From Isoalcanivorax pacificus W11-5 (GTDB lineage: Bacteria > Pseudomonadota > Gammaproteobacteria > Pseudomonadales > Alcanivoracaceae): a DNA stretch of 64,000 nucleotides. Each line of letters starts with the position of its first letter. Positions within the stretch are counted from its first letter, which is position 1. Below the pieces are notes generated by a model that saw nothing but the letters and a program-made list of their open reading frames with translations, did not search any database and was not told where the DNA came from. Both the position numbers and the translations under genes were made by a program. Below are positions 9,585 to 13,951 of the stretch, piece after piece. The DNA lies in assembly GCF_000299335.2 (NCBI RefSeq), contig NZ_CP004387.1:1302001-1366000 (forward strand), in the 5' to 3' direction.

Positions 9585-9896
9585 CTACAGCGCTTTCAGG
9601 CCCAGCATGCCGAGCGCGATCAGGCCGATGCTGGCCCACTTGAGCGGCGAAATACTTTCCCCGAACAGCAGCATGCCGGCCAGCACCGACCCCAGCAGGC
9701 CAATACCGACCCACAACGGATAGGCGAGTGACAGCGGCAATTCGCGCATGGCCAGCGCCAGTAGCGCGACGCTGCCGGCCAGTGCAGCGCCGACACCGAA
9801 CCAGAGCAGCACCGGCGCATCCGCGCCGAGGCGTTTCAGGCCCACGGCCCAGACCACTTCAAGCAGACCCGCGACAGACAGGAGAATCCAGGACAT
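9585..9896 (-). CDS. gdx: SMR family guanidinium exporter (Gdx/SugE type)
   Basis: 103 residues, four hydrophobic helices. It starts MSWILLSVAGLLEVVWAVGLKRLG, with the membrane Glu in LLEVVWAVGLK that binds substrate and protons in small multidrug resistance proteins; WAVGLK is the Gdx/SugE subgroup signature. The C-terminus LLLFGESISPLKWASIGLIALG motif also fits. The upstream RNA (see the riboswitch entry) has the two ACGR hairpins of the guanidine-II class, which supports export of guanidinium rather than quaternary ammonium compounds. ATG at 9896 is preceded by GAGGAA 6 bp upstream. Single gene. Confidence 0.85.
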   Translation of the reverse strand: MSWILLSVAGLLEVVWAVGLKRLGADAPVLLWFGVGAALAGSVALLALAMRELPLSLAYPLWVGIGLLGSVLAGMLLFGESISPLKWASIGLIALGMLGLKAL

Positions 9897-9915
9897 GACA
9901 GCTTCCTCATCAAGC

Positions 9916-9965
9916 GGGGCCGTCCCCTGGAGCAATATGAAGCTGGCAGAGTCGTCTCTGCCAGC
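9916..9965 (-). promoter_or_regulatory. guanidine-II (mini-ykkC) riboswitch
   Basis: Read on the minus strand: hairpin 1 is GCTGGCAGAG-ACGA-CTCTGCCAGC (9965-9942), a 10-bp perfect stem with an ACGA loop; 14 nt later hairpin 2 is GGGG-ACGG-CCCC (9927-9916), a 4-bp stem with an ACGG loop. Two stems capped by ACGR loops, just upstream of an SMR gene, is the defining architecture of mini-ykkC RNAs, which bind guanidinium and raise expression. The Shine-Dalgarno (9908-9903) is 7 nt past hairpin 2, consistent with translational control. Confidence 0.85.
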
Positions 9966-9971
9966 CGGGTC

Positions 9972-9999
9972 AGGATAGTGTCCCCGCCCCCGAATTCAA
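9972..9999 (-). promoter_or_regulatory. candidate promoter of the guanidinium exporter
   Basis: Minus strand: TTGAAT (9999-9994), 16-bp spacer, TATCCT (9977-9972); each box matches 4 of 6 consensus bases. The start point would fall about at 9965, the first base of riboswitch hairpin 1. The -35 overlaps the loop of the upstream hairpin. Confidence 0.4.
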
Positions 10000-10007
10000 G
10001 GGCGGGG
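9982..10007 (-). terminator. hairpin after the aldehyde dehydrogenase gene
   Basis: 8-bp perfect GC stem (9982-9989 with 10000-10007), 10-nt loop, beginning 8 bp after the dehydrogenase stop. No T-run, so a weak or factor-assisted terminator. Confidence 0.45.
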
Positions 10008-10015
10008 AGGTTATT

Positions 10016-11443
10016 TTACGGTGTGCGGATGACCAGCAGACGTTCTTCGGTCATGTCGCGAATAGCCCAGCGAATCCCTTCACGACCCAGGCCGGAATCC
10101 TTCACACCGCCGTAGGGCATGTTGTCCACCCGCCAGGACGGCACATCGCCGATCACCACGCCGCCGACTTCCAGCACGTCCCAGGCTTTCTGGGCCTTGT
10201 ACAGATCGCGGGTAAAGATACCGGCCTGCAGGCCAAAGGTGCTCTGGTTGACTTTTTCCAGCACCGTGTCGAAATCCTCGAACGGTTCCAGCACGGCCAC
10301 CGGGCCAAAGGCTTCTTCCTCGACGATGTTGCAACCGGCGGGTACGTTTTCCAGCAGGGTCGGTTCAAGCATGGCGCCGTCGCGCTTGCCGCCGCAGAGC
10401 AGGGTGCCGCCACGCTCCACGCCTTCGTTGATCCAGTTCTCCAGGCGTTTGGCCTCACCTTCGGAGATCACCGGGCCGATAAAGGTGTCTTCGTCACGCG
10501 GGTCGCCCATGCGCAGCCCTTTGGTTTTTTCCACCAGTTTCTGTTTGAACTTGTCGTAGAGTGTGGTGTGCACATAGATGCGCTGTACGCCGATGCAGCT
10601 CTGGCCGGACTGATAGAAGGCACCGAACACGATGCGTGCCACGGCGTCTTCCAGGTCGGCGTCGCTGTCCACCACACAGGCGGCGTTGCCGCCGAGTTCC
10701 AGTACCACCGGTTTTTTGCCGGCGCGGGCTTTCAGATCCCAGCCAACCGCAGGTGAGCCGGTGAAGCTCAGCAGTTTCAGGCGCTCGTCCACGGTGAACA
10801 GGTCCGCGCCTTCGCGGTGGCATGGCAGGATCGAAAATGCCCCTTTCGGCAGGTCGGTTTCGGCCAGCACTTCGCCGATGATCAGTGCGCCAATCGGTGT
10901 GCGGCTGGCGGGTTTCAGCACGAACGGGCAGCCGGCGGCGATGGCCGGGGCGACCTTGTGCGCGGCCAGGTTCAGCGGGAAGTTAAACGGCGAAATGAAC
11001 GAGCAGGGGCCAATCGGTACGCGCTTGGTGAAGCCGCGATAGCCTTTGGCGCGCGCAGAGATTTCCAGATTCAGCACTTCGCCTTCGATGCGCACGGCTT
11101 CCTCGGCGGCGACACGGAACGTGTCGATCAGGCGGCTCACTTCTCCACGGGAATCCTTGATTGGCTTGCCGGCTTCAATGCACAGCGCCATGGCCAGTTC
11201 TTCGGCACGTTCCTGGAACCGCTTGACGCAGTGGTTCAGGATCGCCTGGCGCTCATAGGGGGCCAGTGCGGCCATTGCGCTGGTCGCGTCCACGGCGGCG
11301 GCGATGCCCTGGTCAATCGCCTTGGCATCGGCCATGGCGACATAGGTGGCGACCTCACCGGAATATTTATCGGTGACTTCCAGGTCCTTGTTCGCGTACA
11401 CCGCCTCGTTGGCGAGGTAGTAGGGATAGGCTTCCTTCAACAT
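10016..11443 (-). CDS. aldehyde dehydrogenase family protein
   Basis: 475 residues, full-length NAD(P)+-dependent aldehyde dehydrogenase. Cofactor segment GPCSFISPFNFPLNL, catalytic Glu in VVLELGGNAACVV and catalytic Cys in SGQSCIGVQRIYVH are all present, with EEAFGPVAVLEPF and the late PYGGVKDSGLGREG. The natural aldehyde is not evident. It lies 38 bp downstream of the acetolactate-synthase-like gene on the same strand, so the two very likely form an operon; a ThDP enzyme producing or consuming a keto acid next to an aldehyde oxidase suggests a joint catabolic step (inference). Confidence 0.88.
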   Translation of the reverse strand: MLKEAYPYYLANEAVYANKDLEVTDKYSGEVATYVAMADAKAIDQGIAAAVDATSAMAALAPYERQAILNHCVKRFQERAEELAMALCIEAGKPIKDSRGEVSRLIDTFRVAAEEAVRIEGEVLNLEISARAKGYRGFTKRVPIGPCSFISPFNFPLNLAAHKVAPAIAAGCPFVLKPASRTPIGALIIGEVLAETDLPKGAFSILPCHREGADLFTVDERLKLLSFTGSPAVGWDLKARAGKKPVVLELGGNAACVVDSDADLEDAVARIVFGAFYQSGQSCIGVQRIYVHTTLYDKFKQKLVEKTKGLRMGDPRDEDTFIGPVISEGEAKRLENWINEGVERGGTLLCGGKRDGAMLEPTLLENVPAGCNIVEEEAFGPVAVLEPFEDFDTVLEKVNQSTFGLQAGIFTRDLYKAQKAWDVLEVGGVVIGDVPSWRVDNMPYGGVKDSGLGREGIRWAIRDMTEERLLVIRTP

Positions 11444-13289: not shown

Positions 13290-13610
13290 TCAGCCGAACT
13301 TCAGCAAGCCCATGCCGAGACACAGGATCAGCAGACCCAGCCCGGCGCGCATGTCCAGCCGCTGGCCGAACAGCAGCGCGCCGGCGGCGGCCGTGGCCAG
13401 CACGCCGAAGCCACCCCACAGGGCATAGGCCACGGCCAGGTCCAGGTCGCGTACCGCCTGGGCCAGTGCGGTGAAGGCACCGAGCACACACAGGATCGAC
13501 ACTGCCGCGATGCCGTGACGCCGGAACCCGTTGGAGTACTTCAGCAGGATATTGGCAGCGACTTCCAGCACCACGGCCAGCAGCAGCCACAGCAGGGCGG
13601 GGCTGTTCAT
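13290..13610 (-). CDS. mdtI: spermidine export protein MdtI (SMR family)
   Basis: 106 residues, four helices. LAVVLEVAANILLKYSNGFR carries the essential membrane Glu, and DLAVAYALWGGFGVLATAAAG with the late LLFGQRLDMRAGLG is typical of MdtI. MdtI and MdtJ act as a hetero-oligomer exporting spermidine across the inner membrane. The start overlaps the mdtJ stop as ATGA (13607-13610). A longer in-frame extension upstream exists but lies over mdtJ in another frame and is not coding. Confidence 0.88.
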   Translation of the reverse strand: MNSPALLWLLLAVVLEVAANILLKYSNGFRRHGIAAVSILCVLGAFTALAQAVRDLDLAVAYALWGGFGVLATAAAGALLFGQRLDMRAGLGLLILCLGMGLLKFG

Positions 13611-13951
13611 GAGTGCACCTCCGCTGCCGGTTCGTGGGTGCCCGCTTTCAGCAGCGCTATGCCGCCCAGCAGCAGCCCGATACCGAGCAGTTGCAGGGCC
13701 GACAGGTATTCGGCAAACAGCAGCGCGCCGGCCACGGCAATCAGGCTCAGCCCAAGCGCTTCCCAGAGCGCATAGGCGACGCCGAGCGGAATACGTTCCA
13801 CGGCGCGGGCCAGGCAGTAGTAGGACAGGGCAATCAGGGGGTACATGGCCAGATAGCCCACCAGCGGCGCGTTGCCGCTGGCCAGTTTCATGGCGCTGGT
13901 TCCCAGCACCTCGGCGATGATCGCCGCCATCAGAAAACACCAGTAAATCAT
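13607..13951 (-). CDS. mdtJ: spermidine export protein MdtJ (SMR family)
   Basis: 114 residues, four helices: MIYWCFLMAAIIAEVLGTSAMK with the membrane Glu14, then ERIPLGVAYALWEALGLSLI, and an extended hydrophilic tail (GTHEPAAEVHS), all as in MdtJ. Obligate partner of MdtI, with which it is translationally coupled. First gene of the pair. The roughly 290 bp upstream hold no gene that I can support and no riboswitch I could recognise. Confidence 0.88.
   Translation of the reverse strand: MIYWCFLMAAIIAEVLGTSAMKLASGNAPLVGYLAMYPLIALSYYCLARAVERIPLGVAYALWEALGLSLIAVAGALLFAEYLSALQLLGIGLLLGGIALLKAGTHEPAAEVHS

Follow-up and report, generated by a model that had tools for sequence, protein, structure and literature searches.

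A guanidine-II riboswitch element directly ahead of a Gdx-like SMR exporter gene in Isoalcanivorax pacificus W11-5

The stretch of DNA analysed here, hereafter the window, covers 64,000 nucleotides of the chromosome of Isoalcanivorax pacificus W11-5 (NZ_CP004387.1, positions 1,302,001 to 1,366,000). On its minus strand, the gene of a 103-residue SMR exporter (9585..9896, with the ATG at 9896) is preceded by a Shine-Dalgarno-like sequence, GAGGA (9904..9908), and by a two-hairpin leader (9916..9966). The first hairpin, P1 (9941..9966, as delimited by sequence, fold and register count), is formed by GGCUGGCAGAG-ACGA-CUCUGCCAGCU, with 10 Watson-Crick pairs, one G-U pair and an ACGA loop at 9955-9952; the second, P2 (9916..9927), reads GGGG-ACGG-CCCC, that is, four G-C pairs, a pairing also found in relatives, closed by an ACGG loop at 9923-9920. 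Both hairpins and their loops had been noticed in an earlier sequence-only reading of the locus, which also placed the second hairpin 7 nt ahead of the Shine-Dalgarno sequence; the sequence at 9966-9916 agrees on all these points. The spacing of 14 nt given there between the hairpins is obtained if the innermost linker-side pair of P1 is left out, and is otherwise 13 nt, which is the length of the linker (9928..9940).

The same reading had taken the pair of ACGR-loop hairpins for a guanidine-II (mini-ykkC) aptamer and had proposed a covariance-model scan as the check. The Rfam model of the class, RF01068, matched the leader at 9963-9915, scoring 38.5 bits where 32 is the cut-off and giving an E-value of 0.00039 over the 64 kb searched, with all 48 model positions covered, and a search of the whole genome returned the element with an E-value of 6.1e-6. 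It is the sole Rfam match at gathering score within the window; two weak plus-strand matches, to tfoR (16.7 of 70 bits) and nhaA-I (15.9 of 37 bits), were dismissed as chance. The window has a single pair of ACGR-loop stems when each stem must have 4 or more pairs, one of the two 6 or more, at a spacing of 5-45 nt; in 100 random sequences that match its dinucleotide composition, such pairs number 0.05 on average and 2 at most. The element shares with the RF01068 class the two ACGR hairpins, the short linker and the placement directly ahead of an SMR ribosome binding site, and differs from it within normal variation only. The assignment as a guanidine-II aptamer is thus supported by the model match, and also by the gene context in the family (see below).

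Upstream of the element lies a weak promoter candidate (9972..9999, minus strand), formed by TTGAAT (9999-9994) and TATCCT (9977-9972) with a spacer of 16 nt, from which transcription would begin at or near the 5' end of hairpin 1. A start on the first base of hairpin 1 was part of the sequence-only reading, and neither hexamer differs in the nearest relative, Alcanivorax sp. S71-1-4. Against this, only 8 of their 12 bases agree with the consensus, and a promoter scan around the element neither listed this pair nor found anything else; because of these two points the candidate is graded as weak. A scan for terminators across 9850-10100 found no terminator-like site. Between the upstream aldehyde dehydrogenase gene and the riboswitch there is also a GC hairpin, CCCCGCCC/GGGCGGGG (9982-10007), conserved in the nearest relative, with the candidate -35 hexamer in its loop.

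The exporter matches PF00893 with 73.4 bits (cut-off 23.7), and its best NCBIfam model is SugE (NF008512), at 82 bits, under the equivalog cut-off of 126. On seven other proteins the SugE model scored above the cut-off in three cases (134.4-138.7) and below it in four (88.3-123.2); the exporter of the near relative reached 88.3 and the remaining six proteins 115.7 to 138.7, the window protein being the lowest of all. Because the SugE cut-off is strict, yet the window protein scores lowest, we label it Gdx-like. It retains Gly10, Glu13, Trp16, Ser42, Tyr59 and Trp62, as well as the GIG motif in TM3; of these, Glu13, Trp16, Ser42 and Trp62 are described as the substrate site, Tyr59 as a switch and GIG as a hinge (PMC7695847, PMC9574504). 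In a sequence search of the PDB at E 0.001, only two Gdx-Clo sequences were matched. An AF2 model, made from an alignment of 13 sequences (pLDDT 94.4), had its best fold match in Gdx-Clo A60T (8vxu_B, TM 0.92), and the top three matches were all Gdx-Clo chains; the other two of these three, with TM of 0.80 and 0.78, were no better than ten EmrE chains (0.64-0.82). The protein is 89% identical to the exporter of Alcanivorax sp. S71-1-4, the nearest named relative; to the closest matches from genus g3 of the family, its identity is 43-48%.

Fold and substrate-site residues are thus held in common with Gdx-Clo and SugE. The window exporter differs from them, besides falling under the NCBIfam SugE cut-off, in having Ser56, Leu57 and Pro60 in place of Gly, Thr and Ala. 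The segment round Tyr59 is SLAYPLW, against GTAYAxW in most SMRs, and was found in two of the 31 SMRs of an alignment drawn up without loci L025-L027 and L029, both of the window's genus. At the codon level, among 369 genomes drawn from the class, only that of the window had the pattern AYP-L/F-W, the draw excluding the second genome of the genus with the segment. The model suggests, so far as fold and retained residues go, that the exporter works like Gdx, though with position 60 naturally altered. That the generic SMR call could be turned into a guanidinium exporter, as previously claimed, finds support as a likely assignment in the Gdx residues and the family context; it is likely and short of proof because the SugE score is under the cut-off and because of the odd residues at positions 56, 57 and 60. 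A gene that would be annotated as a generic "multidrug" SMR is in this way given a likely function, and its diverged product is a naturally occurring case on which the influence of position 60 on SMR specificity can be tested. At 13326-13945 the minus strand of the window has two more SMR matches, next to each other; the upstream one has MdtJ as its best model (99.6 bits, below the cut-off of 122), and the two are perhaps a polyamine-type pair.

The genome (4,168,427 bases, one contig) has five SMR matches in all. A genome-wide search for guanidine classes I and II revealed two guanidine-II elements above cut-off and one guanidine-I element, hence at least three guanidine riboswitches in one genome. 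The second guanidine-II element (L003 10725-10768) is flanked by a uaap2-type gene and the gene of a putative carboxylase of 1201 residues, and the guanidine-I element (L003 13923-14025, 92.7 bits), about 3.2 kb upstream of it, heads the same-strand gene run. From this context we infer guanidine, and not urea, as the substrate of the carboxylase; one residue is reported to distinguish guanidine from urea carboxylases (PMC12186494). An operon headed by guanidine-I, with an internal guanidine-II element and a carboxylase gene, is described for Vreelandella boliviensis (PMC12508155) and for enterobacteria (PMC12186494), and the same plan is found here elsewhere on the chromosome; unlike those operons, the window itself holds a separate exporter copy. 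The two-riboswitch carboxylase operon was dropped as a novelty, being already reported in the same two papers.

Within the window's family, which is mostly marine, 38 of 46 genomes have guanidine-II matches with an E-value of 0.001 or lower (36 above cut-off), including five of the seven genomes of the window's genus, for a total of 58 matches. With the neighbouring genes identified by tblastn with the proteins of the window genome, 20 of the 58 elements lie directly ahead of an SMR gene and 38 directly ahead of a carboxylase gene. Because all 58 precede genes of these two kinds, guanidine is supported as the ligand. Homologues of uaap2/uaap1 lie upstream of the element in all 38 carboxylase loci, and by a count made by eye a guanidine-I element is present on the same strand, roughly 3 to 4.5 kb upstream, in 37 of them; in the other (G005) guanidine-I is on another contig. 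All 46 distinct aptamers have standard pairs at positions 1-3 of P1 and 1-4 of P2, P1 varying among G-C, A-U and G-U, and the four inner pairs of P2 are standard in each of the 19 distinct SMR-linked aptamers; the outer pairs of P1 often fail, pair 4 in 4 and pair 6 in 9 of these 19. Apart from the family search, RF01068 matched at gathering score in five of 16 loci of exporter relatives, the near relative included, where the 16 comprise three (L025, L026, L029) that are not Gdx-like by reading. In Alcanivorax dieselolei and A. xenomutans a SugE-like gene is described downstream of a guanidine-II RNA (PMC9788540), that is, the same class of RNA ahead of the same kind of gene in related bacteria. 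According to that paper the RNA was detected in these two species only, whereas here it occurs in 38 of the 46 family genomes, so the family count widens the earlier statement. The element in the window is an ordinary representative of an established riboswitch class, and its placement ahead of a Gdx-like exporter gene is an arrangement already reported.

A search with the window protein returned 50 matches in 35 of the 46 family genomes. The 24 best, at 51 bits or more (a line chosen after seeing the table, the next match being at 49.9), include all 20 aptamer-linked genes, and four (L083, L084, L085 and L086) have no listed guanidine-II match at E 0.001. The leaders of L085 and L086 keep both hairpins and carry an extra hairpin in the linker, and that of L084 has ACGC as its second loop. 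L083 (G030:C12:92800-93600) shows a gap of 30 columns where relatives have P1 and the linker, with TATAAT directly before a single P2; found by gene position, it is a candidate single-hairpin guanidine-II element. Such elements are regarded as unlikely, and as beyond accurate searching (PMC9481103). Five of the 26 weaker matches were read (L087, L101-L104): no ACGR hairpin pair was seen in the leaders of L087, L102 and L104; L103 is only part of a gene and has no start of its own; and the leader of L101, from the window's genus, is of a variant kind (see below).

According to the literature, RNAs of the guanidine-II class switch translation on and bind guanidinium cooperatively at two sites in a pair of kissing loops (PMC12186494, PMC9094411, PMC9481103). 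The minimum-energy fold of the window leader alone keeps hairpin 1 and lacks hairpin 2, and we read this as the probable ligand-free state; in this predicted free fold P2 gives way to an alternative pairing, in which its 5' arm and loop are bound by GCUGUC, ahead of the AUG, and by codons 2-4. When P1 and P2 were forced, the predicted cost of opening the ribosome site fell from 13.4 to 8.6 kcal/mol, a difference that was equally large with 13 of 100 shuffled downstream regions for the window and with 2 of 100 for the relative L013. Over the 20 SMR-linked leaders the mean gain in opening energy was 3.3 kcal/mol, against 1.5 for shuffles, with negative values in L033 and L073, and the mean probability of P2 in the free fold was 0.17, with values of 0.99 in L033 and 0.96 in L067. 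Single-base accessibility did not separate the free from the forced folds of the 20 leaders, the means being 0.56 and 0.56 for the Shine-Dalgarno sequence and 0.61 and 0.64 for the start codon; opening energies separated them weakly. As modelled, these results fit a translational switch, without proving it.

We consider it highly probable that the guanidine-II riboswitch acts in cis on the Gdx-type SMR exporter gene and raises its translation with guanidinium. The genome itself shows the aptamer, where it lies and the order of the genes; ligand binding, a translational switch and guanidinium transport are suggested by the class, the context and the folding models. As guanidinium accumulates, two ions would bind the ACGA and ACGG loops, and the bound P1 and P2 would dock as a kissing pair. 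Formation of P2 would, according to the folding models, withdraw its strand from alternative pairing with the Shine-Dalgarno and start region; translation of the exporter would then rise and, by analogy with characterized members, guanidinium would be pumped out in exchange for protons.

That the hairpin pair is a chance look-alike is scarcely credible: the P2 stem has only four pairs, as such a look-alike might, but the whole-genome E-value of 6.1e-6, the chance mean of 0.05 per window and the conservation of both place and pairing in the family speak against it. The element may instead be a true guanidine-II RNA placed before a pump whose substrate has shifted to substituted guanidines or other cations, besides or instead of guanidinium. 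Pro60, Ser56 and Leu57 flank the tyrosine switch; SLAYPLW is restricted to the window's genus among the 31 aligned SMRs, and the AYP-L/F-W codon pattern to the window's own genome among the 369 of the class. Position 60 also matters elsewhere: the Gdx-Clo variant A60T is the subject of 8vxu, whose truncated title reads "in complex with cetyltrimetyl". However, Glu13, Trp16, Ser42, Tyr59, Trp62 and GIG are all kept, in both genomes with SLAYPLW the carboxylase gene, too, has retained a guanidine-II element ahead of it, and one guanidine-II RNA is reported to bind guanidine and methylguanidine alike (PMC12508155), so we regard such a shift as improbable. Because of this dual binding, the RNA alone does not settle the substrate of the pump.

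Alternatively, the main level of control could be transcription or the stability of the RNA, and not the start of translation. The folding contrast in the window is equalled by 13 of 100 shuffles, and transcript peaks are reported to accumulate over four Alcanivorax riboswitches, with 3'-end processing sites in two (PMC9788540). Against this stand the lack of any terminator-like site in 9850-10100, the position of P2 just 7 nt from the Shine-Dalgarno-like sequence and the description of the class as translational (PMC12186494, PMC9094411), and we think this mode of regulation unlikely to be the main one.

Two gdx leaders of alphaproteobacterial relatives, at L021 (2431-2484) and L028 (2431-2482, recorded merely as a Proteobacteria bacterium), give no RF01068 match and depart from the canonical element in having an enlarged first loop; they share GAGGC(C/A)ACGTCCTC - linker - AAGTCCGGG(A/G)CGGCCCGG. 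The exact pattern was found in six of 398 genomes of the phylum, and its reversed control in none. A variant model, built from eight leaders, six of which had been chosen by the exact pattern, matched in 30 of 299 genomes of one order and, with strict filters, in seven of 385 genomes of one class, the matches including three (order) and one (class) of the model-building sequences. From L021 (Methylobacterium), we infer the variant-bearing class to be Alphaproteobacteria. All 30 matches in the order lie directly ahead of a gdx-type SMR gene, as do five of the seven in the class; the other two lie before a PACE-type-like gene (L098) and before a broken gdx-like remnant (L100). At L098 (1501-1552) there is an ACGA/ACGG hairpin pair with an ordinary ACGA first loop before the putative PACE-type transporter gene. 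Variant leaders were recorded at L021, L028, L088-L097, L099, L101 and L105-L133, L101 being from the window's genus; the variant set has 40 leaders, 36 of them distinct, and excludes L098 and L100.

Of the 36 distinct leaders, 30 have CCACGU as their first loop, and the other six have CCACGA (2), CCACGC, CAACGU, CAACGA or AACGA. Among the first eight examples, six of them chosen by the exact pattern, there were no pair changes at all. Later examples, in which the second hairpin was located by a fixed pattern, brought a few changes that keep pairing, each seen once: in P1, G-C to A-U at pair 1 (L096, with the stem then mismatched), A-U to G-C and A-U to G-U at pair 3, and G-C to G-U at pair 4; in P2, G-C to A-U at pair 3 (L101). 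P1 is broken at pair 3 in three and at pair 4 in seven of the 36. A scan with RF01068 up to E 1 matched none of the 28 variant loci covered, L096, L097 and L099 being among those outside the scan. A search covering part of the literature found no paper on such a variant leader; if a riboswitch, it would extend the guanidine-II class.

The exporters that follow the 36 variant leaders have Thr at position 60 in 25 cases, Val in four, Ala in three, Met in two, and Pro and Ser in one each, as compared with Ala in 18 and Pro in two of 20 canonical exporters of the family, a contrast that is confounded by descent. It has exceptions: L016, an RF01068 match, has Met60, and L017, with widely spaced ACGA/ACGG hairpins, has Val60. 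It is conceivable, if rather doubtful, that guanidine-II aptamers and their exporters diverge together in ligand, the window pump with Pro60 taking a guanidine derivative or another cation, and the alphaproteobacterial variant with its CCACGU loop, mostly accompanied by Thr, Val or Met60, binding one ligand instead of two, or a different ligand. Pro at position 60 is also seen outside the window's family, in the gdx-type exporter of L115.
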